DNA of 64,000 bases from Arthrobacter sp. FB24 (GTDB lineage Bacteria; Actinomycetota; Actinomycetes; Actinomycetales; Micrococcaceae), in assembly GCF_000196235.1 (NCBI RefSeq), contig NC_008541.1:496001-560000 (forward strand), given 5' to 3'. The translations under genes were made by a program, and so were the position numbers. The notes beneath the pieces were generated by a model. That model saw nothing but the letters and a program-made list of their open reading frames with translations. It had not been told where the DNA came from and did no database searches. Below are positions 15,103-43,596 of the stretch, piece after piece. The number at the start of each line of letters is the position of its first letter. Within the stretch, counting starts at the first letter, position 1.

Positions 15103-15152
15103 TGAGCTTCTTTCGGGGAAGATAGGGGACTGGGCTGCCGTGCCGGCAGAAC

Positions 15153-17008: not shown

Positions 17009-18336
17009 GACTTGGCGTTCTGGCTGTTCAGTTCGTCATTGATCGCGGTGTCCAGGGCCTGCAAACCGGAGGCCACGTTGTCTGCAGGGCAATCGGCCAC
17101 GATCTTGTTCAGCGCTTCAGCCGCGGCCTGGCGGAACGGGACGAAGTTGATGGCGGACGGGAAGGCCTTGGACGACGACTTCAGTGCCTCCTGGACCACT
17201 GACCAGCGCGGATCATTGTAGACGGCGGCAGCATCGACGTCGGAATTCACCGGTACGCGGACGATCGGCTGCTTGCCGGCCGTCATGCCGGCCTTCTGGC
17301 CGTCCTGGGAAACCAGGTAGTCGATGACCTGCTTGGTCTGGTCCTTCTTGGCGTTGCTTGCCGTGACATAGATGTTCTCGCCCTCGGCCAGCACGGTGTT
17401 GTCCTTGGAGCCCTTGGGCGCTTCGATGACCTCGTAGACGTCCTTGCCGGGAGTCTTGTCGAACGATGAGAAGTTGTAGGGGCCGGTGAGGATGATGCCG
17501 GCCTTGCCGGTCTGGAAGAACGGGGAGGCCACGCTGGTGGCTGCGGTCAGGGCACCGGGCTGCGTGTTTCCCGGAGTGCAGAACTGCTGCTTGACCCAGC
17601 TGACACCTGCCTGGGTTTCCGGGGAGGAGGCGTTGGACGAGTACTTTCCGTTGCCCTCATCCTTCAGGTAGCTGCCGCCGTCCTGCCAGATGTACGAGGA
17701 AGCCCACCAGCCCAGGTATCCGCGTTCGGTGGAGCCGGGAACGACCATGCCGTATGTGTCTGCCTGGCCGTTGCCGTCCGGATCCTGGGTGGCGAAGGCC
17801 GTGGCGAGCTTCGCCAGGTCCTCAAGCGTCTTGGGGACGGGAAGTCCCAGCTTTTCGCGCCAGTCCTTGCGGATCATGGTGACCATGGTCTGGCGGGAGA
17901 ACGGAACTCCGTAGCTTGCTCCGTCCAGGCCTTCAGTCTCCTTCCACAGGGAATCGGCAATCCGGTCGCTACCGGTCACTGAGGACCTGTCGATCTTTTG
18001 GAGGTAGCCCTGCGCCGTGTAGTTGCCCAGCGCGGCGGAGTCGTTGATGACGATGTCCGGGAGCTTCTTGGATGCCGCGCGGGTCTGCAGTTGCTGGTCC
18101 AGGTCCGGAACCCCCTGGAAATTGACCTTCACACCCGTCTTCGCCGTGAATTCCTTGAACATGGCGGCGTAGGTGGTGGCGGCGTCGGTGCCAGCGCGTG
18201 CCCACACTTCAATGGGCTGGCCGTCGTCCGTGGCGGCCGGGGCGGACGGCCCGCTCCCGCAGCCGGTCAATGCAGCCGCTGAAGCGATGGACAGGGCCAC
18301 GGCAACCCGTGCTCGGAACCTGATCTTGGAATCCAC
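17005..18336 (-). CDS. extracellular sugar-binding lipoprotein of ABC transporter
   Basis: This 443-residue family-1 solute-binding protein has a lipoprotein signal (ASAAALTGCGSG, lipid Cys about 26). The mature part has the usual extended two-lobe pattern (IEVWARAGTDAATTYAAMFKEF near the start). It captures the imported sugar outside the membrane and delivers it to the two permeases encoded next. The start is GTG at 18336, preceded by AGGGAGAG. As first gene of the leftward operon it lies next to the palindromic operator candidates in the divergent promoter region. Confidence 0.93.
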   Translation of the reverse strand: MDSKIRFRARVAVALSIASAAALTGCGSGPSAPAATDDGQPIEVWARAGTDAATTYAAMFKEFTAKTGVKVNFQGVPDLDQQLQTRAASKKLPDIVINDSAALGNYTAQGYLQKIDRSSVTGSDRIADSLWKETEGLDGASYGVPFSRQTMVTMIRKDWREKLGLPVPKTLEDLAKLATAFATQDPDGNGQADTYGMVVPGSTERGYLGWWASSYIWQDGGSYLKDEGNGKYSSNASSPETQAGVSWVKQQFCTPGNTQPGALTAATSVASPFFQTGKAGIILTGPYNFSSFDKTPGKDVYEVIEAPKGSKDNTVLAEGENIYVTASNAKKDQTKQVIDYLVSQDGQKAGMTAGKQPIVRVPVNSDVDAAAVYNDPRWSVVQEALKSSSKAFPSAINFVPFRQAAAEALNKIVADCPADNVASGLQALDTAINDELNSQNAKS

Positions 18337-18352
18337 TTTGATTCTCTCCCTT

Positions 18353-18366
18353 TTTACATATGTAAA
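18353..18366. promoter_or_regulatory. perfect 14-bp palindrome, candidate operator
   Basis: TTTACATATGTAAA is a perfect palindrome in the gap between the divergent transporter operon and uronate dehydrogenase, 17 bp from the GTG of the binding-protein gene. It is a candidate site for the adjacent IclR regulator or another repressor. Confidence 0.45.
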
Positions 18367-18380
18367 TGACTGTTACTATG

Positions 18381-18394
18381 TGAAACGTACTTCA
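18381..18394. promoter_or_regulatory. TGAA-N6-TTCA inverted repeat, candidate operator
   Basis: An interrupted palindrome (TGAAACGTACTTCA) lies 14 bp from the perfect palindrome and seven bp before a -10-like TATGAT (18401-18406) directed towards uronate dehydrogenase. Its layout resembles IclR-type sites. Confidence 0.4.
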
Positions 18395-18440
18395 TGAGAG
18401 TATGATCGGGATCACAGGGTGTCAATATCGGGAGGAAGAA

Positions 18441-19277
18441 ATGTCAGCAGAGTCGGAGCCGATCACCGTTGCCGTGACCGGTGGCGCCGGAATGATGGCC
18501 ACCCTGCTGCGCCCGCACCTGAGGGAAGCCGGATACGCGGTGCGGCTGATCGACATTGCCGAGCCCGCCAGCCCGGCCCCCAGCGAATCCGTGCTGGTCG
18601 GTTCCGTGGATGACATTGCGTTCATGACAGAGGCACTGGCGGACGTGGACGCCGTAATCCATCTGGGCGGAATCCACCGGGAAAAGCCTTGGGACGATAT
18701 TGTCCGGACGAACATCACCGGGACCCAGGTGACACTGGAAGCTGCGCGAAGCAACGGCGTCAGCAGGGTCCTGCTCGCAAGTTCGACCCACGCCGTCGGG
18801 TTCACTCCGACGGCGGAGGCCGCACGGGACCATGCGCTGCCGCCGCGGCCGGACACGTATTACGGCGTTAGCAAGGCGGCCATGGAAGCGTTGGGGGGCC
18901 TCTATGCGGACAAGTTCGGCATGAAAGTGGTCAGCGCGCGGATCGGAACCGGGGGTGAGCGGCCGGGCAACACCAGGAGCCTGTCCTCGTGGCTTTCGCC
19001 CGGCGACTCCTTCCGCCTCGTGGAGGCCACCCTCAGTGAAAAAGGGGCGCCGGGGCACCATGTGGTCTGGGCGGTTTCAAACAACACGAGGGGCTGGGCG
19101 GACCTGTCTGCGGGAAAGCGCATAGGCTTCGAGCCTTTGGACGATGCGGAAGACTACGCTGACCAGGTCCCTGCGGATCCAGTTCCAGCAGACTGGGACG
19201 GCTTGCTGGGCGGCTTCTGGGCCAGTTCAAGCCACCGTCTCGGTGTGGACAATTATCCTGAGCTTGAGCTGAAGTGA
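18441..19277 (+). CDS. udh: uronate dehydrogenase (NAD-dependent, SDR fold)
   Basis: This 278-residue extended-SDR protein has a Rossmann loop VTGGAGMMATLL (12-24), a catalytic serine region LLASSTHAVG (111-120) and Tyr141-x3-Lys145 (YGVSK). Length and motifs match bacterial uronate dehydrogenase, which oxidises D-glucuronate or D-galacturonate to the aldarolactone with NAD+. The ATG at 18441 is preceded by GGGAGGAAGAA; an ATG further upstream lacks a site. It diverges from the operon that holds glucarate dehydratase, giving the oxidative uronate route. A general sugar epimerase is the alternative, but the context argues against it. Confidence 0.83.
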   Translation: MSAESEPITVAVTGGAGMMATLLRPHLREAGYAVRLIDIAEPASPAPSESVLVGSVDDIAFMTEALADVDAVIHLGGIHREKPWDDIVRTNITGTQVTLEAARSNGVSRVLLASSTHAVGFTPTAEAARDHALPPRPDTYYGVSKAAMEALGGLYADKFGMKVVSARIGTGGERPGNTRSLSSWLSPGDSFRLVEATLSEKGAPGHHVVWAVSNNTRGWADLSAGKRIGFEPLDDAEDYADQVPADPVPADWDGLLGGFWASSSHRLGVDNYPELELK

Positions 19278-19304
19278 ACGGTCCAGGTTAGCGGAGTGGG
19301 GGAG

Positions 19305-20126
19305 ATGAACGCAGTGATGAATCCGGCACATGCCGCGCCAGCCATGCCAGCCGGGGCGGCAGGGGACGTGAAGCTGGTCAAATCGGCCGAAAGAACCATC
19401 GCCATTTTGGAGATGCTCGCGGCGGCACCGAAGCCGCTGACAACAGCCGAGATCTACAAGCAGACCGGCTATCCGAGGTCGAGCCTGCACTGGCTCCTGC
19501 TGACCTTGCTTGAGCTGAACTGGATCGAGCAGAGTCCCGAAGGCGGGTACCGGATCGGCACGCACGCCCTGCTGTGCGGCACGGCGTACCTGGACAGGGA
19601 CCCGGTCATGGAACACGTCTCCGGCGTACTCGAAAAGGTTCGGAACGCCACCACGTTCACAACGCACTATGCGCGGCTGGACCGTTCGGACGTCATATAC
19701 CTGGCCACACGGCAAGCCGTGGACCGCCGGCGCCTTTCGTCCCGTGTGGGACGCAAGCTGCCCGCACACGTGACGGCCCTGGGCAAGGCCATCCTGGCCG
19801 AATTGACTGACGCTGAAGTGCGGGACAGGCTCGGTGAGGGACCCTACCCTCTGCTCACCCCGAACTCGGTGCCTGATTTCGCGGCGCTCCAAACGGAGCT
19901 CGCAGGCTTCCGCAAGGCGGGCTATTCACTCGAACGCGAGCAAAATACGGTGGGACTCTGCTGTGTTGGAATCGTGGTTCCGTACCGGATCCCCGGAACG
20001 GATGCGATTAGCTGCTCGATTCCCACGGAGCTGGCAACCGGGCAGGTGCTCAGCGACGTCGTCGACACTCTGAGGGGTGCCGCGGCCGAACTGGCGGCGA
20101 CGCTCCGGGCGGCCGGAATCCGCTAG
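19305..20126 (+). CDS. IclR-family transcriptional regulator
   Basis: The protein has about 273 residues. An N-terminal winged helix-turn-helix (SAERTIAILEMLAAAPKPLT ... YPRSSLHWLLLTL) is followed by the IclR effector-binding GAF-like domain (THYARLDRSDVIYLATRQ, LPAHVTALGKAILAEL, GLCCVGIVVPYR). It probably represses or activates the divergent udh and glucarate operon promoters in response to a uronate-derived ligand. The start is uncertain: GTG 19296, ATG 19305 and ATG 19317 are all in frame, and 19305 best fits AGCGGAG at 19290-19296. It lies 27 bp after udh and is probably co-transcribed with it. Confidence 0.9.
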   Translation: MNAVMNPAHAAPAMPAGAAGDVKLVKSAERTIAILEMLAAAPKPLTTAEIYKQTGYPRSSLHWLLLTLLELNWIEQSPEGGYRIGTHALLCGTAYLDRDPVMEHVSGVLEKVRNATTFTTHYARLDRSDVIYLATRQAVDRRRLSSRVGRKLPAHVTALGKAILAELTDAEVRDRLGEGPYPLLTPNSVPDFAALQTELAGFRKAGYSLEREQNTVGLCCVGIVVPYRIPGTDAISCSIPTELATGQVLSDVVDTLRGAAAELAATLRAAGIR

Positions 20127-29654: not shown

Positions 29655-30719
29655 TTAGCGGACGCCAGGCTCGGGCGCAGGCCCCGTGGAGCCGCGCACC
29701 GTGAGGTGGGTGGGCATCACTGCTAGGCGCCTGGTCGTTCCGCCGTGGAGCGGATTCAACTGGGAAAGGAGCATCGAAACGGCAACGCGACCAGCCTGTT
29801 CGATCGGGGAGGAAATGGTTGTTAGCGGAGGGTTGCAGAAATCAGCGCCGAAAATATCGTCGCATCCCACAATGCTCATGTCCTCGGGCACGCGGATGCC
29901 CCTCTCGCGCAATCGCTGCAGCATGCCTATGGCCAGCAGGTCATTGAAGACGATGCACGCCGTTGCCCCGGTGCGCACGGCAGCGTCGGCGGCTGCCGCT
30001 CCGGATGTGGTCTTCGGGGTGAAGGGGCCGATCCTGTGCGTTTCGAGTCCTCTATGGGCGGAGTCCTCCTCGAAGATTTTCCAGCGTCGCAAATTGGACC
30101 ACGACGTCGGCGGGCCGCTCACGTAGCAGATCCGGTGATGGCCGAGGGAGGCGAGGTGCTCCAATGCCTGGATCATGGCGGACGGCGTATCGATCACCAC
30201 GGTAGGTGCGTTCGCTGAGGCGCGATTGATTGTAACCAGCGGCTGCGAACCGGAAACGTCGGCAAGCTGCGCGTCCGTCAGGCGCGATGCCGCCAGGATA
30301 AACCCGTCCGCTGACCGCCGCATTTTGTGAAGTGCCTCAAGCTCCATCTCGCTGGACTCCTCAGTGTCCACCAGGAGCTGGGTGAGCCCGGCGGCCTTGA
30401 GCTGGTGCTGCGTCCCCCTGATGATGTCGAAATAGAAGGGGTTGGTAATGTCCGGCACCAGGACAGCTACAGTGTCCGTGCGACCCGAACTGAGTCCCCG
30501 AGCCTGCGAGCTGGGCACGTAATTGAGCCGGGCTGCGGCCTCTTCGATCCGTTCCCGGGTGTGCCGGTTTACCCGGTCCGGCTTGGACAGTGCGCGCGAA
30601 ACCGTTGAAGTGGCCACTCCCGCCAGCTCGGCTACGTCCTTGATTGTTGGCATTTTTTCGGCGGGCGGCCTGCGGACCTCGGCCCCGTTGTCCCCTGCAT
30701 CCACCACCGCAGAGCTCAT
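29655..30719 (-). CDS. LacI-family transcriptional repressor
   Basis: This 354-residue protein has an N-terminal LacI helix-turn-helix and hinge (TIKDVAELAGVATSTVSRAL ... RLNYVPSSQARGLSSGRT) after a 23-residue extension. The periplasmic-binding-protein-like effector domain contains VPDITNPFYFDIIRG, CIVFNDLLAIGML and SIVGCDDI. It probably binds the operator at 30822-30835 and releases in the presence of a sugar-acid inducer, controlling the divergent transporter/uxaC operon. AAAGGA precedes the ATG. Confidence 0.95.
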   Translation of the reverse strand: MSSAVVDAGDNGAEVRRPPAEKMPTIKDVAELAGVATSTVSRALSKPDRVNRHTRERIEEAAARLNYVPSSQARGLSSGRTDTVAVLVPDITNPFYFDIIRGTQHQLKAAGLTQLLVDTEESSEMELEALHKMRRSADGFILAASRLTDAQLADVSGSQPLVTINRASANAPTVVIDTPSAMIQALEHLASLGHHRICYVSGPPTSWSNLRRWKIFEEDSAHRGLETHRIGPFTPKTTSGAAAADAAVRTGATACIVFNDLLAIGMLQRLRERGIRVPEDMSIVGCDDIFGADFCNPPLTTISSPIEQAGRVAVSMLLSQLNPLHGGTTRRLAVMPTHLTVRGSTGPAPEPGVR

Positions 30720-30859: not shown

Positions 30860-30932
30860 GAGTTTCGAATCGCCTGCAGTGATGTGCGCCACATGACGTT
30901 GTGGCCATGTGGGTGTCCTAGAGGAGAAAACA

Positions 30933-32294
30933 ATGAGGTTTAGATCGTCTTCCGGGCTTGCGGCAATCGTTACGGCTGCGGCTTTGGCATTGACCGGCTG
31001 CGGCGCGGGCGCAGGGACTACTGGCAGTTCAACAAACGCCGACGGAAAGGTGGACGGCACGGGCAAGACGCTCAACGTCCTGGTCGGCGTCCTCAGCCAG
31101 TACCCGGAGCAGCAGAAGAAGTGGCAGAGCGACATCGCGGCCAAGTTCAAGGCAGAAACCGGGGCCGACGTGAAGTTTGAAACCTTCGCCTCAGCCAACG
31201 ACGAGCTGACGCGCATCCAGACCTCCGTGGTTTCAGGGCAGGGCCCGGACATCTATGGGCTCGGCACCACGTTCACTCCGACCGCCTTCGCCACCAAAGC
31301 CTTCGTGACCCTGTCCGACGACGATTGGAAGAAGGTCGGCGGCAAGGACCGCTTCAACCCTGCAGCATTGGGCATCTCCGGCCCCGACGAGGGGCACCAG
31401 GCCGGCATCCCGTTCGTAAGCCGCCCCTTCGTGATGGCTTACAACAAGGAGCTGTTGGCGGCTGCAGGCATTGAGAAGCCTGCCACCAGCTGGGACGAGC
31501 TTGCCGAACAGGCGAAGAAAATGACCAAGGACGGCACGTTCGGCATCGCCACCGGGTACAAAGACTCCTACGATCCGTGGAAGTTCATCTGGGCCATGTC
31601 CGTCCAAGCCGGCAATCCGCTGGTGGACGGAAACAGCCTCAAGATGGATGATCCCACCGTCAAGAAGGCTTACGAGACTTATTTCGGCTGGTTGACCGAT
31701 GACAAAGTTGTGGACCCTGCCTCCGTCGGGTGGAGCAACAGCAACGCGGTTGCTGCCTTCGCCAGCGGAAAAGCCGGTTATCTGATGATGACGACGTCGA
31801 GCTCCATCCCAACGCTGGACAAGTCGGCCGTGGCAGGCAAGTACGAATACGCACTGATGCCCACTACCGCTCCGGGTGAATCCAGCCCCAAGAGTGACGG
31901 CGCGGAAGCCGCGAGCATCCTCTCCGGGGATAACCTCGTGGTGGCGGACTACTCGAAGGAGAAGGATCTCGCCTTCGCCTACATCAAGCTGATCACCTCG
32001 AAAGAGGAACAGCTGAACTACCAAAAGACCTTCGGCGACCTGCCCGCAAACGCCGAGGCGTTGGCCAGCCTCACTGATCCCAAGCTCAAGCCAATCGCGG
32101 ATGCCGCCGCCAAGTCCAAAGCCACCCCGTTTACAGGTGCTTGGGGCGACATCCAGCTCGGCTTGCTCAACGTCACTGTTCAGTCGATTCCGGACCTTTC
32201 CAGCGGCAGGCTCGACGAGTCGGCCCTCGAGGCTCGAATCAAGGACGCCCAGACCAAGGGGCAGGCGTCCCTTGACCGGGCCGCCAAGGGATAA
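30933..32294 (+). CDS. extracellular sugar-binding lipoprotein of ABC transporter
   Basis: This 453-residue family-1 binding protein has a lipobox AALALTGCGAG (lipid Cys about 23). An extended mature part follows (LNVLVGVLSQYPEQQKKW ... SVVSGQGPDIYGLGTTF). The ATG at 30933 has AGAGGAGA upstream. It is the first gene of the LacI-controlled operon. Its ligand is probably a uronic acid or glucuronide, inferred from the downstream uxaC-type genes. Two permeases follow directly. Confidence 0.93.
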   Translation: MRFRSSSGLAAIVTAAALALTGCGAGAGTTGSSTNADGKVDGTGKTLNVLVGVLSQYPEQQKKWQSDIAAKFKAETGADVKFETFASANDELTRIQTSVVSGQGPDIYGLGTTFTPTAFATKAFVTLSDDDWKKVGGKDRFNPAALGISGPDEGHQAGIPFVSRPFVMAYNKELLAAAGIEKPATSWDELAEQAKKMTKDGTFGIATGYKDSYDPWKFIWAMSVQAGNPLVDGNSLKMDDPTVKKAYETYFGWLTDDKVVDPASVGWSNSNAVAAFASGKAGYLMMTTSSSIPTLDKSAVAGKYEYALMPTTAPGESSPKSDGAEAASILSGDNLVVADYSKEKDLAFAYIKLITSKEEQLNYQKTFGDLPANAEALASLTDPKLKPIADAAAKSKATPFTGAWGDIQLGLLNVTVQSIPDLSSGRLDESALEARIKDAQTKGQASLDRAAKG

Positions 32295-32300
32295 GTTCTG

Positions 32301-33314
32301 ATGTCTACAGACGCTTCCAATGAAGTCCGGGTTGCGGCGGACTCCGCCGCAACCCGGGCCTCCCGGGCCGCCTCTTCCGTGGCTGGTCCGCCGCCTGCCG
32401 GCGAGAGCAAGGGCCGCCGCAAGGGCCTGAGTGAACGCAACCGCCCGCTGTGGATGCTCATCCCGGGCGGGGCACTGATGTTCATCATCATCGTGGTGCC
32501 GCTTGTGCTGGGCATCTACATGTCCACCCTCAACCTGGACCAGTACACGCTGCGCCGCTGGATCAGCTCACCGTTCATCGGGGTGGAGAACTTCGTCGAA
32601 GCGCTCACTTCGTCGCCGCTCCTCCACGCAACCTGGCTGAGCGTCAGCTACTCCCTGCTGGCCATGGTGGTCACACTTCCGCTCGGAATCGCGGCTGCCG
32701 TGGCAACTCAGAATGCCTTCAGGGGACGCGCCGTGGTCCGGTCCATCTTCCTGATCCCGTACGTACTCCCGTCCTTTGTGGTTGCGACGATCTGGCGCAC
32801 CATGTTCCAGCCGGACGGCATCGTGGACAAGGCCCTGGGAACTGTGGGCATCGAAACCGGGCTCTGGCTCAACGGGCCGCAGACCTTCTGGACGCTGGTT
32901 CTGGTCCAGATCTGGGCCTCTTGGCCATTCATCTACTTGCTTGCGCTGTCCGGACTGCAATCCGTGGACCACGAGGTCCATGAGGCGTCAGCCTTGGACG
33001 GAGCCCTGTGGTGGAACAAGCTTCGATACGTCATCTTCCCTTACCTCAAGGGACCGCTTGCCCTCGCCTTCCTGATCGGCATGCTGCACCACATCAACAA
33101 CTTCACCCTTCCCTTCGTGCTGTTCGGCGTCCCTGCGCCAGCCGACGTCGAAGTGCTCCCCATCCTTACCTACGTCACCAGCTTCCAAAGCTTCCGCTTC
33201 GGACTGAGTGCTGCCATGGCTTTCGTCTCCCTGGTTCTGATCGCCATCCCGCTGTTCGTTTACCTTCGCGCCGTCAAGCTCGACGACGCCGAGTCACCTG
33301 GAGCCAAGAAATGA
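32301..33314 (+). CDS. sugar ABC transporter permease (MalF type)
   Basis: This 337-residue protein has six spans after an extended Ala/Ser-rich cytoplasmic start of about 45 residues. The EAA loop appears as EVHEASALDGALWWNKLRYV. It begins seven bases after the binding-protein gene and overlaps the next permease by four bases. The transport ATPase is not in the operon. Confidence 0.92.
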   Translation: MSTDASNEVRVAADSAATRASRAASSVAGPPPAGESKGRRKGLSERNRPLWMLIPGGALMFIIIVVPLVLGIYMSTLNLDQYTLRRWISSPFIGVENFVEALTSSPLLHATWLSVSYSLLAMVVTLPLGIAAAVATQNAFRGRAVVRSIFLIPYVLPSFVVATIWRTMFQPDGIVDKALGTVGIETGLWLNGPQTFWTLVLVQIWASWPFIYLLALSGLQSVDHEVHEASALDGALWWNKLRYVIFPYLKGPLALAFLIGMLHHINNFTLPFVLFGVPAPADVEVLPILTYVTSFQSFRFGLSAAMAFVSLVLIAIPLFVYLRAVKLDDAESPGAKK

Positions 33315-34234
33315 GCACCTCCACCGCCAGCAGGGCCCGCACCTCCAGCACCGCTGTTCTCCGCCCCGGGTCCTCCCGGCAGCATGAAGTGACACGGCTG
33401 CTGCCCCGTCCGCTCCTTGCTTTTATCCTGGTGTTCCTTGGTGCCCTTGTCCTGATCCCCGTGCTTTACATCTTCCTTGCCTCGGTGAACTCGGACATCG
33501 GTGTGGCCAACGGCGAGTTCTGGCCGTCAAGCTTCACGCTGGAGAACTACTCGAAGATCTGGACCAGCGTGGGCCTGGCGACGGGGCTGGCGAACAGTGT
33601 CCTCGTGGCCGGCGCTACGGCGGTTGTCTCGGCCGCCATGTCTGTGTCAACGGCATTCGTCCTGGTCCGCTACACCTTCAGGGGCCGTCTCACGATTCTC
33701 CGTGGGCTCCTTGCCCTGCAATCGGTGCCCGGAACGCTGATGGTTCTCCCCGTGTTTGTGCTGTTCTCTTCGGCTGCAACGTACCTCGGCATCCAAGTGA
33801 TCGGGACGCAGTGGGGGTTGTTCGTCACGTACCTGACGTTCGCCATGCCGTTCTCCACCTGGGTCATGGTCACCTACCTTCGCGGGCTGCCCCGTGAACT
33901 CGAGGAAGCGGCCCGGATCGACGGCGCCAGCAACCTCGGCGTCCTGTTCAGGATCATCCTGCCCCTGAGCTGGCCAGGCATCGTGGTATCGGGAATCTTC
34001 GCGTTCCTGCTCGGGTGGAACGACGTCCTGTTTGCATCCGTGATGACCCGGCCGGAAAGCCAGACCGCAGCCGTTGCACTGCAGATTTTCGGGGCTTCCC
34101 AAGAAGGGGGCGCTATCCCGTACTACGGCCAGATGATGGCCGCAGCACTTGTCTGCGCGGCACCCGTGGTCATTCTGTACCTGATTTTCCAGCGTTATCT
34201 AGTTGGCGGGCTGACCGCCGGAGGAGTTAAGTAA
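33311..34234 (+). CDS. sugar ABC transporter permease (MalG type)
   Basis: This 307-residue permease begins at the ATG overlapping the previous stop. It has six spans and an EAA loop EEAARIDGASNLGVLFRIIL. It pairs with the MalF-type subunit. The longer open frame upstream is antisense to the reading of the first permease and was not used. Confidence 0.92.
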   Translation: MSTSTASRARTSSTAVLRPGSSRQHEVTRLLPRPLLAFILVFLGALVLIPVLYIFLASVNSDIGVANGEFWPSSFTLENYSKIWTSVGLATGLANSVLVAGATAVVSAAMSVSTAFVLVRYTFRGRLTILRGLLALQSVPGTLMVLPVFVLFSSAATYLGIQVIGTQWGLFVTYLTFAMPFSTWVMVTYLRGLPRELEEAARIDGASNLGVLFRIILPLSWPGIVVSGIFAFLLGWNDVLFASVMTRPESQTAAVALQIFGASQEGGAIPYYGQMMAAALVCAAPVVILYLIFQRYLVGGLTAGGVK

Positions 34235-34236
34235 CC

Positions 34237-35085
34237 ATGGTTTCAACCACTCAGGCCTCATGGGCTCTGTCGGGCTTCGGGGATGAGATCGACGACGACC
34301 CCGCCATCCAGATCGCCGTGCTGCAGGCGCTGGGCGCCAACCACATCGAGGTGCGCAGCGCTTGGGGCACGAACATCGTGGACCTGTCCGATGACCAGCT
34401 CCACGGACTTGCCGACATGCTGACGGCAAAGGGAATGAAGGTGTCTGCGATTGCCTCGCCGATTGGCAAGGTCGATGTCAGCGTTCCGGTGGAGCACGAA
34501 GTGGAGCGCCTGCGCCGGGCTGCCAACGCAGCCAAGGTCCTCGATGCGAAGTACATCCGCATCTTCTCCTTCTACTACGGCGAATCCGTGCCGGTGGACA
34601 GCATCCGCGATGCTGTCCTGGAGCGGATGCGTGCGCTGGCCGACGTGGCCGAGGAAGAAGGGGTGATCCTCCTGCACGAGAACGAGAAGGACATCTTCGG
34701 GGATGTTCCGGACCGTGTGCTCGACATCATCGAATCCGTGAATTCGCCGGCGTTGAAGGTGGCCTGGGATGCGGCCAACTTCGTGCAGGTAGGTGTGAAG
34801 CCCTTTGACGAGGCCTACAAGAAGTTGCGCCCGCATCTGGAATACCTGCAGGTCAAGGACGCGCTCTTTTCAAACGGGCATGTTGTTCCCGCAGGTGAGG
34901 GCGACGGCGACGTGCTGCGTACCGTGGAAGCGCTCAAGGCTGACGGCTTCAACGGCTTCGCTTCCCTTGAACCGCATCTTGCCGGCGCGCACGGCCTGGG
35001 CGGATTTTCCGGCCCTACGGCGTTCGGCATTGCCGCCCGCGCGTTTGCCAAAGTCACAGCAGAAGCAGGAGTCCAGACGGTATGA
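34237..35085 (+). CDS. sugar phosphate isomerase/epimerase-type TIM barrel
   Basis: This 282-residue AP-endonuclease-2-like barrel has a metal-binding pattern with Glu in LLHENEKDIFGD, Asp in KVAWDAANF, an EYLQVKDAL strand and a final Glu in ASLEPHL. Family members isomerise or epimerise sugars or cleave 3-keto-glycosides. It lies two bases after the permease and overlaps the Gfo/Idh/MocA gene by four, so these two enzymes probably act in sequence on the imported compound. The exact reaction is unknown. Confidence 0.85.
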   Translation: MVSTTQASWALSGFGDEIDDDPAIQIAVLQALGANHIEVRSAWGTNIVDLSDDQLHGLADMLTAKGMKVSAIASPIGKVDVSVPVEHEVERLRRAANAAKVLDAKYIRIFSFYYGESVPVDSIRDAVLERMRALADVAEEEGVILLHENEKDIFGDVPDRVLDIIESVNSPALKVAWDAANFVQVGVKPFDEAYKKLRPHLEYLQVKDALFSNGHVVPAGEGDGDVLRTVEALKADGFNGFASLEPHLAGAHGLGGFSGPTAFGIAARAFAKVTAEAGVQTV

Positions 35086-36248
35086 GTAAGACATTGAAGG
35101 TGGCCATTACCGGGTGTGGCGTCATCGGCCGCACCCACGCGGTTGCCCTGCAGGAATTCCCCGGGACCAGCATTGTGGCGCTGGTTGACGCCATCCCAGA
35201 TGCGGCCGAGTCGCTGGCGGACTTCATCGAGTCGAGCGGAAGGCCAAGGCCCTCGGTGCACACCTCCCTTGAGAGCGCCTTCGCAGCGGCCGACATTGAC
35301 CTGGTGGCCCTTGCCACTCCAAGCGGACTGCACATCCAGCAGGGCCTCGAAGTCCTTGCGGCCGGCAAGCATGTGGTCATCGAAAAGCCGCTGGATGTCG
35401 ATCTGAGCCGGGCCCAGGAGATCGAGGCGGCGGCCAACGAAGCAGCACGGCAGGGCATCGTTGCGTCGGTGATCAGCCAACACCGCTTTGACCAGGCCAG
35501 CGTGGCTGTTGCGGACGCAGTGGCAAAGGGCCGGTTTGGCCGGCTGACCTCGGCCATCGCATCCGTTGCGTGGTGGCGCGGGCAGGGCTACTACGATTCC
35601 GGCGACTGGCGCGGTACATGGTCAATGGACGGCGGGGGAGCCCTCATGAACCAGGGTGTCCACACGGTGGACCTGTTGCTGTGGTTCATGGGCCGGCCGG
35701 TAGAGATCCACGCCCACACGGCCCGCCTGGCACACGAGCGGATCGAGGTGGAGGACACGGCCGTTGCCACTGTCACGTTCGAGAACGGCGGCCTGGCAGT
35801 CCTGCATGCCACCACGGCCGCGTACCCGGGACTGACAGTACGGGTCCAACTGATGGGCTCGGAAGGCTCCGCAGTGGTGGACAACGACCAGTTGCAGTAT
35901 TTCCACGCCAGGGACGCCGGCGGCGCTTCGGCCGACATGGGGCTGCAGGGCGGAGGGAACCAGGCCCAAGAGGAACTGTCCAAATACCCGGCCGAGGACT
36001 ATGAGGCCAAGGATCCCACGGTGTATCCGGCCGGGCACGTCCGCCAGTACCGCGACATCCTGGGAGCCATCGCCGAGGGCCGCCAGCCTGGCGTGACCGT
36101 GAGCGATGCAGTCAATGCCCTGGCCACCGTGCGTGCCGTTTACGTGTCGGCCACCCTAAACCAGGCGGTCCTCTTCGAGGACGTCCTGGCGGGCAAGTAC
36201 AACGACCTTGAAGTCCGCACAGGGTCCACTTCGACAGAAAGCGCCTGA
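35082..36248 (+). CDS. Gfo/Idh/MocA-family NAD(P)-dependent oxidoreductase
   Basis: This 388-residue protein has an N-terminal Rossmann fold (VAITGCGVIGRTHAVALQ), the conserved EKPLDVD motif with the catalytic Lys, and a C-terminal alpha/beta domain with GGGALMNQGVHTVDLLLWF, where the His is a substrate contact. Such enzymes oxidise a sugar hydroxyl to a ketone, often at C3 of a glycoside. It sits between two TIM-barrel isomerase-type genes, overlapping the first by four bases. Substrate is not determined by sequence. Confidence 0.88.
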   Translation: MSKTLKVAITGCGVIGRTHAVALQEFPGTSIVALVDAIPDAAESLADFIESSGRPRPSVHTSLESAFAAADIDLVALATPSGLHIQQGLEVLAAGKHVVIEKPLDVDLSRAQEIEAAANEAARQGIVASVISQHRFDQASVAVADAVAKGRFGRLTSAIASVAWWRGQGYYDSGDWRGTWSMDGGGALMNQGVHTVDLLLWFMGRPVEIHAHTARLAHERIEVEDTAVATVTFENGGLAVLHATTAAYPGLTVRVQLMGSEGSAVVDNDQLQYFHARDAGGASADMGLQGGGNQAQEELSKYPAEDYEAKDPTVYPAGHVRQYRDILGAIAEGRQPGVTVSDAVNALATVRAVYVSATLNQAVLFEDVLAGKYNDLEVRTGSTSTESA

Positions 36249-36252
36249 CGCG

Positions 36253-37158
36253 ATGAAATTCTCAGTATTCACGGCCTCCACGCCTGACTGGACTCCGGAG
36301 GAAGCCGTCACCAACCTGGCCGCGCAGGGTTGGGACGGGATCGAATGGCGGATTACGGACCAGGCAGAGGCGCCCGAGCCCGGTTTCTGGGCCGGCAACA
36401 AAGCCACGATCCCCCTGACCGGACTTGAAGGCAACCTGCAGCGGATCGCCTCCATCACCCGCGACGCAGGCCTGGAGTTCTCCGGTATCGGTGGCTATGC
36501 GCGGTGTGACAACCACGACGACGTCGAACGGATGCTGGCGGCCACCGCCGCGTTGGGTGCGGGCCAGGTCCGCGTGACAACCCTGCCGCTGGGGTCTGCA
36601 GGTTGGGGGAACGAAGAGCCGAGCGGCATCCCCTACCCTGTCCTGTTTGAGGCGGCCCGCCGGGATTTCGAATGGGTAGCGGAACGTGCTGCCCACCACG
36701 GCGTGAAGGCGCTGGTTGAACTGCACCACCGCACCATTACGGCGTCAGCTTCATCGGCCCGGCGTCTGCTGGAGGGCCTGGATCCCCGGCACGTGGGAGT
36801 CATCCATGACCTGGGCAACCTGCTGATCGAGGGGCAGGAAGACTACCTGCCTGCCTTCGAACTGCTGGGGGACTACCTGGCGCATATCCACGTCAAGAAC
36901 GCCGTGTGGGTCCGCAGGGATGAAAGGGATGCCTCCGGTGCCGCAGTGTTCCAGAACGAATGGGCACCGCTGCAGTCCGGACAGGGCAGCGTCCTTGAAT
37001 ACTTCAAGGCGTTGGCAGCCCATGGCTACGACGGCTGGGTCACGGTGGAAGACTTCTCCACGGAGCTTCCCCTGGCCGAACGTACTGCCGGGAACCTTGA
37101 CTACCTGCGGCGCACGGCGGCTCTCGCCGGGCTTACCGCAGGGGCAGGGGCACGCTGA
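36253..37158 (+). CDS. second sugar isomerase/epimerase-type TIM barrel
   Basis: This 301-residue protein starts at ATG 36253, five bases after the oxidoreductase stop. It is a divalent-metal TIM barrel with ALVELHHRTITAS, VGVIHDLGNLL, LAHIHVKNAVWV and a terminal WVTVEDFSTELPL carrying metal-ligand Glu, Asp and His candidates. It is only distantly like the first barrel in the operon, so the two probably have different tasks, for example isomerisation and lyase steps. It is followed four bases later by uxaC. Confidence 0.85.
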   Translation: MKFSVFTASTPDWTPEEAVTNLAAQGWDGIEWRITDQAEAPEPGFWAGNKATIPLTGLEGNLQRIASITRDAGLEFSGIGGYARCDNHDDVERMLAATAALGAGQVRVTTLPLGSAGWGNEEPSGIPYPVLFEAARRDFEWVAERAAHHGVKALVELHHRTITASASSARRLLEGLDPRHVGVIHDLGNLLIEGQEDYLPAFELLGDYLAHIHVKNAVWVRRDERDASGAAVFQNEWAPLQSGQGSVLEYFKALAAHGYDGWVTVEDFSTELPLAERTAGNLDYLRRTAALAGLTAGAGAR

Positions 37159-37162
37159 GACC

Positions 37163-38566
37163 ATGGTGCACTCTATGGCAGCCCACCCGGACCGGCTCCT
37201 TCCTGCGGAGCCCGGCGTCCGGGACATAGCCCGCTCGCTGTACAACCTGGTGGAGGGTCTTCCGATCATCTCCCCGCATGGCCACGTGGATGCTGCGGTG
37301 ATTGAACAGAACCTGCCCTTCCCCGATCCCGCCGCCCTGCTGGTCACACCGGACCACTACGTGACCAGGTTGATCCACGCAGGGGGCGTCCCGATGGACC
37401 AGCTGGGCCTCGGCGAAACCGCCGCGGACTCGCGCCAGGTCTGGCGCAACTTCTGTGCCGCGTGGCCTGACTTTGAGGGCACGGCCTCCGGTTATTGGAT
37501 CCGGCAGGAATTCGAGCACGTCTTCGGTTTGCACGAGGAACCGACCGTGGAGAATGCCGACAGGATTTTCGACGCTGTTTCGGCCAAGCTTTCCGAACCG
37601 GGATTCCGGCCACGGCAGCTGTTCAAAGAGTTCAACATTGAGGTGCTGGCCACCACGGACGATCCGCTGGACTCCCTGGACAGCCATGCGGCCCTGGCCG
37701 CGGACCCTGCGTTCGCCGGCCGCGTCCTGCCAACCTTTCGCCCGGACCCTTACCTGAACATCGCCCATCCGGAATGGCGGGACAACGTGGAACGCCTCAT
37801 CGGCGTCGGCGGTTCAGGTGCGTCCGGATATGCGGGCTACATCGGTGCACTGGAATCAAGACGGCGCCACTTCGTGGAAAACGGTGCGGTGTCCGCTGAC
37901 CACGGCGTCCGCACGCCCGCAACCCTGAAACTGGACGCCGCCGACGCGGAGCGGCTGTTTGAGCGCGCCCGGGCGGGCAAAGCCAGCCCGGAGGACCGCG
38001 AGGCATTCGAGGCCCACATGATGTACCAGATGGCCAGAATGTCCGTGGAAGACGGGCTGGTCATGACGATCCACCCCGGCTCTTACCGCAACCATCACGG
38101 TCCCACGTTCGAGGCTTTCGGCGCGGATACGGGTCATGACATCCCGTTCGCCGTGAACTACACCGAGGCTATCCGGCCCCTGCTGCAGGACTTCGGCACG
38201 GCCAAGGACTTCCATCTGGTGCTGTTCACCCTGGACGAGACCGTGTTCTCACGGGAACTGGCGCCCTTGGCGGGTTTTTATCCGTCCGTGTATATAGGCG
38301 CCCCGTGGTGGTTCCTGGACGCGCCGGATGCGATGCTGCGCTTCCGGGCGGCGATCACGGAAACGGCCGGCTTCTCCCGGTCCTCCGGGTTTATCGACGA
38401 CACCCGCGCATTCTGCTCCATCCCGGCCCGCCACGACACCTCGCGCAGGATCGAGTCCTCATTTTTGGCACGGCTGGTAGCCGAGCACCGGATCAGCGAA
38501 GAACGCGCCCGCGAGCTGATCGTGGACATCGTGGACTCCTCCCCGCGAAGGGTGTTCAAACTATGA
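37163..38566 (+). CDS. uxaC: glucuronate isomerase
   Basis: The 467 residues are close to the 470 of E. coli UxaC. The N-terminal metal site HGHVDA (LPIISPHGHVDA), VLATTDDPLDSL, VMTIHPGSYRNH and the C-terminal DDTRAFCSIPARHDTSRR are typical. It converts D-glucuronate to D-fructuronate (and galacturonate to tagaturonate) as the first step of the isomerase pathway. It overlaps the next reductase gene by four bases. Start is ATG 37163 with a weak upstream ribosome site. Confidence 0.93.
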   Translation: MVHSMAAHPDRLLPAEPGVRDIARSLYNLVEGLPIISPHGHVDAAVIEQNLPFPDPAALLVTPDHYVTRLIHAGGVPMDQLGLGETAADSRQVWRNFCAAWPDFEGTASGYWIRQEFEHVFGLHEEPTVENADRIFDAVSAKLSEPGFRPRQLFKEFNIEVLATTDDPLDSLDSHAALAADPAFAGRVLPTFRPDPYLNIAHPEWRDNVERLIGVGGSGASGYAGYIGALESRRRHFVENGAVSADHGVRTPATLKLDAADAERLFERARAGKASPEDREAFEAHMMYQMARMSVEDGLVMTIHPGSYRNHHGPTFEAFGADTGHDIPFAVNYTEAIRPLLQDFGTAKDFHLVLFTLDETVFSRELAPLAGFYPSVYIGAPWWFLDAPDAMLRFRAAITETAGFSRSSGFIDDTRAFCSIPARHDTSRRIESSFLARLVAEHRISEERARELIVDIVDSSPRRVFKL

Positions 38567-40011
38567 GCGCCAACCAAGCGCCCGTGCTGAACCGGGCACT
38601 GATGCCGCTGCCCAAGGCCCCGGTGCGGATCGTGCATCTGGGCCTCGGAGCATTCCACCGTTCGCACGAGGCCTGGTACACGCAACATGCCGGCGACGGT
38701 GCCGAATGGGGGATCGCGGCGTTTACCGGCCGGCGGCCCGACGCAGCACGGGCGCTGGCCGCGCAGGATGGCCTGTTCACGCTAATCGAGCGTTCCGGCG
38801 ACGGGGACAGTTTCGAAGTCATCGGAAGCATCACCGAAGCTGTGGACGGAGCCGACCTCGGGCGCCTTCGCGAGCTCGTCTCCGCCCCGGCCACCGCCAT
38901 GGTCACGCTGACCATCACCGAGGCCGCATACGGCCTGGCGCCGGACGGCAGCTTCCACGCAGGCGCGCCCGAAATTGCCGAAGATCTCGCCATGCTGGCG
39001 CACGTTGCCGGTACCGGCGGGAAGCCCCGGACGCCGCTGGGCCGGCTGGTCTCCGCCCTCGCCGGCCGCAGGGACGCCGGGTCAGGGCCGATCGCCGTCG
39101 TCAGCTGCGATAACCTATCCGGCAACGGAGACGTGGCCCGCCGCGCAGTCACGGGAATGGCAGAAGCTTGGGACAGCGAGCTTGCACTCTGGATCGGCGA
39201 GAATGTCAGTTTTGTCAGCACATCCGTGGACCGGATCACGCCGCGGACCACCGACGCGGACATCGCAGAGGTGGAGCAAGCGTGCGGCTACCGGGACAGC
39301 ACGCCTGTGGTCGCCGAGCCGTTCCGGGACTGGGTCATCAGCGGTGATTTCCCGAAAGGCAGGCCCCGCTGGGAGGATGCCGGCGCCGTCGTGGTGGACG
39401 ACATTGAACCCTACGAGAACCGCAAGCTGTGGCTCCTGAACGGCGCCCACTCACTCCTGGCATATTCCGGTCAGCTCCGGGGGCACACCACGGTGGCCCA
39501 AGCACTCGAAGATCCGGCGTGCCGGGACGCCGTGGAAGCTTTTTGGGACGAGGCAGCGGCTCATCTTCGCGGCGACGATCTCCACATCCCCGAGTACCGG
39601 GATGCACTCCGCGGCAGGTTCGGCAACGGCCGCATCGCGCATCATTTGTCGCAGATTGCCGCCGACGGCACCACGAAACTCCGGATGCGGGCCCTCCCGG
39701 TCCTCGCCGCCGAGAGATCCGAGGGCCGCTCCGGTGCCGGCAGCGCCCTTATGCTGGCCGCCTGGATCGACTTCGTGGCCGTACACAAGGAGCTTCAGGA
39801 CCCAATGTCCGATGCCATCGGCACGGCGAACGGGGCCCGCGGCCCTGAGCGGGTGGCCTCCCTCCTCAACCTCATCAGCCCGCAGCTGGGCGGGGACCCG
39901 CAGATCGTTGCCCTGGTGGCAGGTCTGAGCGGCACTTTCAGCACGGACACCGGCCAAACGTCTTCCGAGACCGCCACACTTGCCCACCTGATTCCCGGAA
40001 GGAACAGCTGA
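38563..40011 (+). CDS. fructuronate reductase-like (mannitol dehydrogenase family)
   Basis: This 482-residue long-chain polyol dehydrogenase starts at the ATG overlapping the uxaC stop. It has an N-terminal Rossmann segment [20 protein letters not shown] and the catalytic Lys/Asn/His pattern [16 protein letters not shown]. Between uxaC and a mannonate dehydratase it most likely reduces D-fructuronate to D-mannonate with NADH (the UxuB role). Mannitol or tagaturonate activity is the alternative. Confidence 0.9.
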
Positions 40012-40016
40012 AGTTC

Positions 40017-41246
40017 ATGAAAATCATTGCAGCAGAAGTATTCGTCACCAGCCCGTCCCGTAACTTCGTGACCTTGCGGATCACCACCGAGGACGGTGTG
40101 ACCGGCATCGGTGACGCGACCCTGAACGGCCGCGAGCTCGCGGTGGCGGCGTACTTGAAGGAACACGTCGCGCAGCTGCTGATCGGCAAGGACCCGCACA
40201 GGATCGAGGACACCTGGCAGTTCCTGTACCGCTCCTCCTACTGGCGCCGGGGCCCGGTCACCATGGCCGCAATCGCCGCAGTGGACATGGCGCTCTGGGA
40301 CATCAAGGGTAAGGTGGCCGGGCTGCCGGTCTACCAGCTCCTGGGCGGGGCGTCCCGGAACGGCCTGCGTGCCTACGGCCACGCCTCTGGTTCGGATATC
40401 CCCTCGCTGTTTGATTCGGTCCGCGAACACCTGGAGCTGGGCTACAAGTCGATCCGGATCCAGACCGCGGTCCCCGGCATCAAGGCGGTCTACGGCGTGG
40501 CCGCGCAGGCCCAGGCCTCGGGGGAGCGTTACGACTATGAACCCGCCGGGCGAGGCACCTTCCCGTTGGAGGAGGACTGGGACACCCGGGCGTACCTGCG
40601 CCACCTGCCCACCGTGTTCGAGGCCGTCCGCAACGAATTCGGGCCGGAAATCCCGCTGCTGCACGACGGCCACCACCGCATGACCCCGATCCAGGCGGCC
40701 AAGCTGGGCAAGGCACTGGAACCGTATGACCTGTTCTGGCTTGAGGACTGCACGCCGGCCGAAAACCAGGAAGGGCTGCGCCTGGTGCGCCAGCACACCA
40801 CCACTCCGCTGGCGATCGGTGAAGTATTCAACACCGTGTACGACTTCCAGACCCTGATCAAGGAACAGCTGATCGACTACGTCCGGGCAGCCTCCACGCA
40901 CTTTGGTGGCATTTCCCCGCTGAAGAAGGTCATGGACTTCGCCGCGCAGTACCAGATCAAGTCCGGCTTCCACGGCCCCACCGACATCTCCCCGGTGGGC
41001 TTCGCCGCGCAGCTCCACGTGGGCCTGGCCATCCACAACTACGGCATCCAGGAATACATGCAGCACTCGGACAAGACCAACGAGGTCTTCGAACAGTCCA
41101 TGACCTTCGTAGACGGTTACCTGCACCCGGGAGACAAGCCCGGCATCGGCGTCGAATTCAACGCCGAAGCCGCAGCCGCCTACCCGTACCAGCAGGCCTA
41201 CCTCCCGTACAACCGCCTCGTGGACGGCACCGTCCATGACTGGTGA
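40017..41246 (+). CDS. manD: D-mannonate dehydratase, ManD type (enolase superfamily)
   Basis: This 409-residue enolase-superfamily enzyme has metal ligands Asp217, Glu243 (FWLEDCTP) and Glu269 (AIGEVFN), with His219 next to Asp217. Arg147 and Tyr159 correspond to the catalytic pair of ManD. It dehydrates D-mannonate to 2-keto-3-deoxygluconate. It is unrelated in fold to classic UxuA. Its stop overlaps the start of the kinase-GH3 fusion by 11 bases. Some ManD-like enzymes act on gluconate or are slow, so the activity is not certain. Confidence 0.9.
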
Positions 41247-43596
41247 CGCGCGGGCTGTGACAGCGCACCGCACGGCCAAGCACCGGATCATCGTCATGGG
41301 CGTTTCCGGCTGCGGCAAGACCACCATCGGCGACCTCGTGGCCCGCGAACTGGGCGTACCGTTCCTCGACGGCGATTCCCTCCACCCGGTGGAGAACGTG
41401 GCCAAGATGGCGGCCGGTATGCCGCTGACCGATGAGGACCGCTGGCCCTGGCTGGCCACCGTGGGCGCCGAGCTCGCCGAAGCCGGCGACGGCGGACTGG
41501 TGCTCGCCTGCTCTGCCCTGCGGCGCAGCTACCGCGACGCCATCCGGGAACAGGCGCCGGACACCGTGTTCCTGCACCTGCACGGCAGCAAAGAAGTGCT
41601 GCGGGCACGCACTGAAGGGCGCACCGGCCACTTCATGCCGCCCGCCCTCCTTGATTCGCAGCTCGCCACGCTGGAACCGCTCGACGCCGATGAAGCGGGC
41701 ATCGTGGTGGACATCGCCGCCCCGGTAGACCAGGTGGTAGCCGAAGCGCTGGCCGGCATTGCCGCCGGGAACGCTGGCGCCGTCGGAACCACCGCCGTCG
41801 CCCGTTCCACGACAGCAGGCACCCGCGAAGGTGCCGCCCGCACCCAACCGCGGCAGTTCGACGTCGACCTCCAGGCTGCGCCGTTCAACCTCGACGACGA
41901 CGCCGTTGCCTGGGTGGATTCCACGATCGCCGGGATGAGCCTCGAGGAAAAGATCGGGCAGCTGTTCATCAACCACAACAACGACTACTCCCCGGAGTAC
42001 CTCGACAGCGTGCTGGAGAACTACCACGTGGGCGGCATGCGGTACCGGCCCGGCCCCTCCGCCGCGGTGCAGGAGCACATCCGGTACGCCCAGTCCAGGA
42101 CCCGGATCCCGCTGCTGGTGGCCTCCAACCCGGAAATGGGAGGAGCCGGCAGCTGCGACGACGGCACGTTCGTGTCCACGCACCTGCAGGCCGGCTCGCA
42201 CCCGGACAAGGCCATCGCCCGGCAGATGGGCCAGGTTGCCGGCGTCGAAACCGCGGCGCTGGGCTGCAACTGGGCCTTCGCGCCGATCGTGGACATCCAC
42301 TACAACTGGCGGAACACGGTCATCTCCACCCGGTCCTTCGGCAACACCCCGGAGATCGTGGTGGAGCGCGCCCAGGAGTATTTCGACGGCATCAGCGAGT
42401 CACCCACCGCCTGCGCCATGAAGCACTTCCCCGGCGACGGCATCGACGAACGTGACCAGCACGTGGTCACGTCCTACAACACCCTTGGCTACGAGGACTG
42501 GAACCGGAGCTACGGGCACGTGTACCGCGAAATGATCGGCCACGGCGTGCAGTCCATCATGATCGGGCACATCGGGGCACCCGAATTGTCCCGGCACTTC
42601 CGCCCCGGCATGGCGGACGCGGACATCCTGCCGGCCACACTGTCTCCGGAGTTGCTCCAGGACCTGCTGCGCGGGGAGCTCGGCTTCAACGGGCTGATCC
42701 TCACGGACGCCTCGCAGATGATCGGACTCACCCAGGCCATGAAGCGCAAGGACCTGGTGCCGGCCACCATTGCCGCCGGCTGCGACATGTTCCTGTTCTT
42801 CCGCAATCCCGCGGAAGACTTCGGCTACATGATGGACGGCTACAAGTCCGGTGTGATCACCGAGCAGCGGCTGCATGACGCGCTGCGCCGGATACTGGCA
42901 CTCAAGGCTTCACTGGGCCTCCACCGGAAGGCACGGCACGAGCTTGTCCCGCCGGCGGAAGCACTCGCGGTGATCGGTAGCGACGCACACCGCGCCATTG
43001 CGGCGGAAATTGCGGACAAGACCGTCACCCTGGTCAAGGACACTGCCCACAACCTGCCCATCACTCCGGTGACACACAAACGGATCCGCCTATACGGCAT
43101 CTCCGGCAGCGCCGACTTCACACGCGCGGACCCGCTCGCCTACCTGGACACCGTCAAGGAAGAACTGGAAACGGCCGGCTTCGAGGTGCACCTTTTCAAG
43201 ACGGCGGACCAGCGGGAGGCCGCAGGGGAGACCGGCGTGAACTTCATGTCGGTCATCTCGGAGGAAGCCACCGGCGATTATGCGGACAAGTACGATGCCG
43301 CCTTCGTGTTCGCCAATGTGAAGGGCTTTGCCCAGGAGGCAGCCATCCGCATCAAGTGGTCCACCCCGATGGCCGCGGAGATCCCGTGGTACGTCACCGA
43401 GGTCCCCACCGTATTCGTCTCGCTCAACCAGCCCAACCACCTCATTGACGTGCCGATGGTGAAGACCGCCATCCACGCCCACACAGGAACCCGGGAAGCC
43501 ATCCGGGCAACCATCGAGAAGATCATGGGGAGCTCGGAATTCCAGGGAACGTTCAACGAGAACGTGTTCTGCGATTCCTTCGACACCCGGCTTTGA
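41236..43596 (+). CDS. gluconokinase / glycoside hydrolase family 3 fusion protein
   Basis: This single 786-residue frame joins two full domains. Residues 1-175 match GntK gluconokinase: P-loop [10 protein letters not shown] (21-30), FLDGDSLHP (43-51), [17 protein letters not shown] (57-73) and [10 protein letters not shown] (92-101). An Ala/Thr-rich linker of about 40 residues follows. From about 222 on is a GH3 domain of the NagZ/beta-glucosidase type: [36 protein letters not shown] (395-409) and the probable nucleophile Asp491 in [11 protein letters not shown]-terminal alpha/beta-sandwich part (about 570-786) completes the GH3. No signal peptide is present, so both act in the cytoplasm. 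It closes the uronate operon and overlaps manD by 11 bases. No 2-keto-3-deoxygluconate kinase is seen in the operon. Confidence 0.88.

Follow-up and report, generated by a model that had tools for sequence, protein, structure and literature searches.

A conserved in-frame fusion of a GntK-type kinase and a GH3 enzyme in a uronate operon of Arthrobacter sp. FB24

Genes at the Locus

Arthrobacter sp. FB24 carries an uninterrupted reading frame on the forward strand (41236..43596, from an ATG at 41236 to a stop codon ending at 43596) whose product of 786 amino acids joins a gluconokinase-type kinase (GntK) to a domain of glycoside hydrolase family 3 (GH3). Positions refer to the window, the whole stretch of 64,000 nucleotides analyzed here (contig NC_008541.1). 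This open reading frame is a genuine conserved gene fusion of two enzymes in one operon. In profile searches, TIGR01313 (gluconokinase, GntK/IdnK-type) matches residues 18–173 with 184.7 bits (cut-off 113.75) and PF00933 (GH3) matches residues 236–555 (E 4.1e-56), and the best sequence match of the GH3 half in the PDB, 5vqd, aligns over residues 212–786 (E 1.1e-116). Thus, a GntK-like domain is joined in one frame to a full GH3 domain, as a preliminary description drawn from the bare sequence had proposed. The P-loop of the kinase half (GVSGCGKT) spans residues 22–29, and the GH3 motif KHFPGDG (residues 396–402) and D491, which aligns with the GH3 nucleophile, lie where that description placed them. 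No signal peptide was seen by eye in the 786-residue product, which agrees with its view that both reactions would be cytoplasmic. The predicted structure (mean predicted local distance difference test, pLDDT, 85.1) has two parts that are for the most part modelled with confidence, separated by disorder at residues 180–207. The gene and its parts are:

41236..43596, + strand, fusion of a GntK-type kinase and a putatively phosphorylase-type GH3, 786 amino acids (profiles, PDB match, predicted structure)
41275..41775, + strand, kinase domain, residues ~14–180 (TIGR01313 over 18–173; model mostly confident, weak at ~121–140)
41773..41856, + strand, linker, residues 180–207 (pLDDT <50; length varies among relatives)
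41857..43593, + strand, GH3 domain, residues 208–786, with clade-specific R269 and N298, dyad D407/H409 and nucleophile D491 (alignments; best PDB match 5vqd, template modelling (TM) score 0.92 by target length)

The fusion gene starts inside the last codons of the D-mannonate dehydratase gene (ManD, 40017–41246), overlapping its 3′ end. UxaC, a UxuB-like gene and ManD lie directly upstream, which bears out the earlier assignment to a uronate operon. The other genes of the operon, with its divergent regulator, are:

29655..30719, − strand, LacI-family regulator, divergent from the operon (PF00356/PF13377)
30909..32294, + strand, solute-binding protein of an ABC sugar importer (PF01547)
32301..33314, + strand, ABC importer permease 1 (PF00528)
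33008..34234, + strand, ABC importer permease 2; true start probably internal to the open reading frame (PF00528 over residues 216–399)
34237..35085, + strand, TIM1, sugar isomerase/epimerase-like TIM barrel (PF01261)
35082..36248, + strand, Gfo/Idh/MocA dehydrogenase (PF01408/PF22725)
36208..37158, + strand, TIM2, second sugar isomerase-like TIM barrel (PF01261)
37169..38566, + strand, glucuronate isomerase UxaC; start picked inside a longer open reading frame (NF002794 equivalog, 565.8 bits, cut-off 387)
38560..40011, + strand, fructuronate reductase-like UxuB; start picked inside a longer open reading frame (NF011611, 250.3 bits, below the cut-off of 603)
40017..41246, + strand, D-mannonate dehydratase ManD (NF043051 equivalog, 686.7 bits, cut-off 550)

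Relatives of TIM1 at 65–68% identity adjoin a stand-alone GH3 in Cryobacterium/Microcella. A second sugar-acid locus lies at window positions 13813–20126. It holds an enolase resembling glucarate dehydratase (239 bits, short of the equivalog cut-off), ABC-importer-like genes recognized by eye (15153–18336), a regulator of the IclR type and a gene like those of NAD-dependent dehydrogenases, and may represent an oxidative uronate route alongside the isomerase route.

Conservation and Origin of the Fusion

The fusion is present in many Arthrobacter, Pseudarthrobacter and Paenarthrobacter genomes, a recurrence that argues against an assembly error. The best 120 of 1991 homologues with E ≤ 0.001 (8000 candidates scored) stem from several databases and all combine PF01202 with PF00933 in 754–792 amino acids; the closest among these matches, at 99% identity, is recorded for an Arthrobacter. 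Among 42 fetched loci with a GH3 at least 60% identical (window excluded), 29 have the two parts fused in frame, 4 were scored as split and 9 have no detected kinase, one of the latter (L018) only owing to a fragmentary assembly. The preliminary description had proposed a search for the same fusion in other genomes, and had named two findings that would speak against it: a frameshift or assembly error joining two genes, or homologues that always occur as separate genes with unrelated neighbors. The 120 two-domain homologues and the 29 in-frame loci answer that search and rule out an artefact. Separate genes do exist; their neighbors are related ones. The loci scored as split are L021, L025 and L122 (the last two apparently the same locus, retrieved twice) and L125, which is decayed and contains stops; at the true split loci (L021, L122), kinase and GH3 are separate genes with a gap of a few dozen bases.

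The two halves have different histories. Across the 29 fused loci, the GH3 is 84–94% identical to that of the window, and the kinase is as little as 53% identical. In a kinase tree of 88 rows, 30 of them fused as set by open reading frame (10 rows from the nine loci L158–L162, L166, L170, L173 and L226 were excluded as distant or unlinked to ManD), a single clade of fused kinases is rejected (approximately unbiased test p 1.25e-6, log-likelihood loss 162.6). In the GH3 tree, the domains joined to both kinds of kinase are interleaved. L118 and L010, for instance, are sisters there (support 100/100), and their kinases fall in opposite halves of a first kinase tree, in which the deepest fork bears no star. 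Hence there were either two separate fusion events, or recombination at the linker swapped one kinase part for another. That such a fusion persisted with kinases of two stocks mildly favors a useful role for the union.

Within the family Micrococcaceae (197 genomes searched), 13 genomes among the matches listed, the source genome included, carry a full-length GH3 of this clade, fused to the kinase in 10. At E ≤ 1e-60, no GH3 of this clade was found among 296 genomes of the phylum beyond the window's own. The gene looks like a sporadic acquisition. At least two family genomes among the matches listed hold only remains of the GH3. One has a GH3 with in-frame stops after ManD and GntK (L125, genome G098), and the other has a C-terminal GH3 fragment adjoining a GntK (L124, genome G182).

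The GH3 Half

The closest relatives of the GH3 half by fold and by sequence are structures of BglP/BglX (5VQD, 5VQE), a stand-alone retaining GH3 beta-glucoside phosphorylase. A fold search with the predicted model ranks 5vqd and 5vqe first (TM scores 0.92 and 0.90 by target length), and the likeness extends to the full-length alignment, the Asp-Gln-His dyad segment, the nucleophile and an Asn where NagZ has Asp. BglP/BglX differs in identity (36% in the structural alignment) and in having Met where the clade has an invariant Arg, R269. The part of a 2022 review available to us describes its activity as being on glucosides, and names only two GH3 phosphorylases characterized by then, neither of which acts on glucuronides there (PMC8950772). 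According to the same text, an Asp-His dyad in place of the Glu/Asp acid/base lets phosphate enter (PMC8950772). In an alignment of 92 clade sequences (54 below 60% identity and 38 at or above), the dyad D407/H409 and the nucleophile D491 are identical in 92/92, K396, H397 and R366 are likewise invariant, and Q408 is Gln in 83/92. Judged by these residues, the GH3 half differs from ordinary hydrolases and belongs to the Asp-His dyad, presumably phosphorylase-type, branch. The preliminary description, right about family GH3, needs to be corrected on this one point of the branch. The profile scan gave only GH3 and P-loop kinase-type domains and no GH2 domain, and so the fusion is not UidA.

Two further positions set the clade apart. 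R269 (92/92) stands in place of the Ile of Bacillus subtilis NagZ and the Met of 5vqd, and N298 (92/92) in place of an Asp of B. subtilis NagZ that presumably binds O4 and O6 of the sugar. Both lie at the ends of strands that are neighbors in sequence order in the predicted structure (267–270 and 294–297), and by that order the two residues could point towards the carboxylate at C6 of a uronic acid. NagZ/Nag3-type beta-N-acetylglucosaminidases (B. subtilis, Paenibacillus) share the Asp-His dyad, the KHFPG motif and the nucleophile, but have Asp at the N298 position and Ser, not Gln, in the dyad segment. Public records call the fusion ‘beta-N-acetylhexosaminidase’, ‘glycosyl hydrolase’ or ‘gluconokinase’, and each label hides half of it; the first is probably wrong. 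Six loci (L040, L044, L059, L063, L074, L082) hold two GH3 copies of this clade, and the duplication suggests two activities within the clade.

Gene context points to glucuronides. Of 591 confirmed stretches in the genome scan, the best 80 were retained, which make 79 loci, 53 of them outside Micrococcaceae; neighbors were called by homology (E ≤ 1e-12), contig ends truncate some loci, and broad families (PfkB, transporters) are possibly over-called. The 53 outside loci contain UxaC (26), UxuA (26), a mannonate-oxidoreductase SDR (21), a UxuB like that of the window (5), KdgK-like PfkB (14), KdgA (21), UidA (14) and a UidB-like transporter (22), such that at least one core glucuronide/uronate gene is present in 35/53 and at least two in 31/53. 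Representatives were named with NCBIfam: the UidA of L036 (NF007538, 799 bits, cut-off 544), the UxuA of L040 (509 bits, cut-off 191, subfamily model) and the UidB of L008, an Arthrobacter locus (NF007353, 646 bits, cut-off 528). A HAD gene accompanies the GH3 in 38/53 outside loci, within 300 bases in 31. Its catalytic motifs are intact (D22, D24, K202, D224 and D228 in 33/33 aligned sequences, S171 in 32/33). A sequence search against the PDB gave nothing convincing for it; its predicted model (pLDDT 94.6) retrieves phosphoglycolate phosphatases and beta-phosphoglucomutases in a fold search, which fits an enzyme taking a beta-sugar-1-phosphate. The representative (L036:9128–9982) of this HAD family, which 32 further loci share, has no NCBIfam match at 1e-8.

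In Micrococcaceae, many relatives have a gene set that differs from the window operon: UxaC, UxuB, a UidB transporter, ManD and the fusion. Here the GH3 occupies the same genomic slot, beside UidB and ManD, as the beta-glucuronidase UidA, which belongs to another family (GH2) and shares certain outside clusters with the GH3. Among 34 ManD loci that include a UidB-like transporter, the GH3 alone is present in 20, UidA alone in 9, both in 1 (L118) and neither in 4; 13 of the 34 came from the genome scan and were picked for having the GH3, and L025/L122 are possibly one locus counted twice. The same count in 21 loci from family genomes is 7, 9, 1 and 4 (Fisher p 0.024, uncorrected for kinship). 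Gene context and the alternation with UidA make a uronic acid the probable form of the sugar acid that the preliminary description had the GH3 release, and a glucuronide is, from sequence evidence, the fairly likely substrate.

The Kinase Half

The kinase half shares with GntK/IdnK gluconokinases the TIGR01313 match, the P-loop and the conserved residues; whereas those enzymes are GntP/Gnd-linked, it is ManD-linked and fused to a GH3. A survey of ManD loci at ≥70% identity covered 70 loci, 69 of them distinct (L172 and L226 are one region), from 73 places after leaving out the window's own, G039, G180 and the broken G098. GntK directly follows ManD in 42 of them. In 11 (10 distinct), a PfkB KdgK-like gene lies no more than 3.5 kb away; L132 alone has both kinases. 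The kinase clade follows ManD without a GH3 in many related genomes, which makes it a ManD partner in its own right, whether or not a GH3 is present; the ancestor of the kinase half was a GntK already located behind ManD. The near-exclusion of GntK and KdgK beside ManD suggests that they do the same job, phosphorylation of 2-keto-3-deoxygluconate (KDG). The kinase half contains no PfkB domain, the domain of the KDG kinase KdgK family; it is a GntK-type enzyme that could still work like a KDG kinase.

The residues themselves give no clear signature that separates KDG, gluconate and mannonate as substrates. G22, K28, D47, H50, N54, R69, R125 and R129 are identical in every row that is ungapped at the site (24 fused by a strict label, 42 ManD-linked and 9 GntP-linked), and D45 is kept in 78% of the GntP-linked rows. 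At residues 131–133 the fusion kinase has G-H-F and GntP-linked enzymes mostly have H-E-Y; E. coli GntK, we assume, also has G-H-F. The source genome encodes a second GntK (49% identical), labelled as beside a GntP-like gene.

The preliminary description saw no KDG kinase or aldolase in the operon, and proposed that the kinase part might fill this gap. Two observations speak for that: GntK and KdgK hardly ever co-occur beside ManD in the family, and the KdgK-like PfkB of the source genome has relatives at E ≤ 1e-50 in only 3/12 same-genus and 40/197 family genomes, a threshold under which the KdgKs beside ManD fall (mostly ~35% identical to it). Against it, the source genome, with 20 PfkB matches, has elsewhere a KdgK-like kinase and aldolase-like pair (C4:2099984–2101571), whose aldolase-like gene is just below the TIGR01182 cut-off; another place (C4:2022076–2022675) is above it. 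KdgA, KdgK, ManD and GntK also occur together in three order-level loci outside the family. The near-exclusion at ManD suggests that GntK simply replaces KdgK, but these loci (L252, L255, L264) and L132 weaken that view.

Two other locus types were seen. A separate group of GntKs stands outside the ManD pair (10 rows, support 100/99 in the first kinase tree; L122, L116, L124, L128, L129, L133, L134, L148, L155), several of them beside a MerR-type regulator gene. Another type of ManD locus (L198, L199, L202, L203, L207, L208, L226) has ABC permeases, a 30% ManD paralogue, KdgA, KdgK and ManD consecutively with no GntK adjoining ManD; in L226 a GntK lies ~3 kb off.

Proposed Pathway and Alternatives

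In the proposed pathway, an imported beta-glucuronide would be cleaved in the cytoplasm by the GH3 half. D491 would form a glucuronyl-enzyme, which phosphate (or water) would resolve by way of the dyad D407/H409, so that beta-glucuronate-1-phosphate (or free glucuronate) is released. From free glucuronate, the successive action of UxaC, the UxuB-like reductase and ManD would lead to KDG; as given in the part of the source available to us, the usual glucuronate route likewise runs through UxaC, UxuB and mannonate dehydratase to KDG (PMC6353982). The kinase half would phosphorylate the 6-hydroxyl of the sugar acid at the end of the route, most likely KDG and less likely gluconate or mannonate. 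The fusion would thus couple the two ends of one pathway rather than consecutive steps in it. The earlier idea that the kinase acts directly on the product of the GH3 finds no support: the kinase stands behind ManD without a GH3 in many related genomes, and UxaC, UxuB and mannonate dehydratase intervene before KDG. These three enzyme steps, and the KdgK/aldolase-like pair elsewhere in the genome, also leave direct channelling between the halves unsupported. The fusion may bring the cell a benefit, which we infer rather than observe. As a whole, a conserved fusion of a glucuronide GH3 and a route-end kinase in one glucuronide-utilization operon has about an even chance of being right. Phosphorolysis as the main GH3 reaction is finely balanced, and KDG as the kinase substrate is a tentative assignment, somewhat short of even.

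Several findings weigh against this pathway. The fusion is not obligatory, given the split genes at L021 and L122, the GH3 without kinase at L123, L024 and L120, and the kinase without GH3 in many loci. The described beta-glucoside phosphorylase 5vqd (part of PMC8950772) also has Asn at the N298 position, and 12/53 outside loci lack any uronate, HAD or second GH2 gene. On the kinase side, the conserved residues are, except for 131–133, those of the GntP-linked, presumably canonical gluconokinases. KdgK and GntK stand together in L132, and among 21 order-level ManD loci outside the family (from the best 30 loci of the search, flanks of 1.5 kb) GntK occurs in 7, 3 of which also have KdgK and KdgA. 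Finally, the HAD gene was not found in 61 family genomes by a search that recovers it in both known positives among 7. A phosphorolytic product would thus be without an obvious fate in this family, which makes hydrolysis a serious rival here. A water-using beta-glucuronidase that replaces UidA, its dyad merely inherited from NagZ-like ancestry, would also account for the alternation with UidA and for the free glucuronate that UxaC needs. It is nevertheless rather unlikely, as the closest characterized relative is a phosphorylase, the HAD partner of outside loci suggests a phosphate ester, and UidA and the GH3 share a cluster in some loci (UidA and UxaC beside the GH3 in 10/53 outside loci; L118).

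Other explanations concern the kinase and the reason for the union. If the GH3 cleaved, by phosphorolysis or hydrolysis, a beta-glycoside with a gluconate aglycone, such as cellobionate, the fused kinase would phosphorylate the released gluconate, giving a direct reason for the fusion; the kinase is above the TIGR01313 cut-off with canonical residues, and Q408 fits a glucose-type glycon, the role we take its equivalent to have in BglP. This is improbable, since the kinase clade stands behind ManD without a GH3 in many genomes, GntK was not found in 53/53 outside GH3 loci, and the operon genes are UxaC, UxuB-like and ManD. Unlikely, though less so, is a kinase that takes mannonate, or gluconate derived from mannonate, to yield 6-phosphogluconate, as has been proposed for some uronate users. 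The two epimerase-like TIM barrels of the operon would suit this, and the part of the source available to us reports mannonate kinase and 6-phosphomannonate 2-epimerase activities in cell extracts of Lactobacillus suebicus (PMC6978723). The adjacent ManD would use up mannonate, however, and TIM1 occurs in only about a third of ManD–GntK loci and TIM2 in three (by eye, in regions of limited length). Finally, the union could be neutral, arising when a stop codon was lost between adjacent, co-regulated gntK and GH3 genes, with no coupling beyond the operon. The split neighbors with gaps of tens of bases, the disordered and variable linker, and the separate absence of kinase or GH3 in some loci make this a possibility of some weight. 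It falls short of probable because the union is maintained in many species and interleaved GH3s carry kinases of two distinct lineages, the latter a pattern that linker recombination could also produce.

Implications

The fusion is made of known families, and what looks new is the substrate of the GH3 group; no report of a GH3 glucuronide phosphorylase or of a kinase–GH3 fusion was found in the open-licence literature by title and start of abstract. The broadest reading would make the GH3 clade the first retaining beta-glucuronide phosphorylases, recognizable by R269, N298 and D407/H409, with the adjacent HAD enzyme taking their product beta-glucuronate-1-phosphate in Bacillota and a GntK-fold partner from two lineages serving as KDG kinase in Arthrobacter-type bacteria. 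Taken whole, that reading is speculative and rather doubtful. If true, many proteins named ‘beta-N-acetylhexosaminidase’ would gain a testable new function, and Bacillota, including gut lineages, would have a phosphate-based branch in their breakdown of glucuronides. GntK-type enzymes that accompany ManD would likewise be candidates for the final kinase step of uronate degradation.

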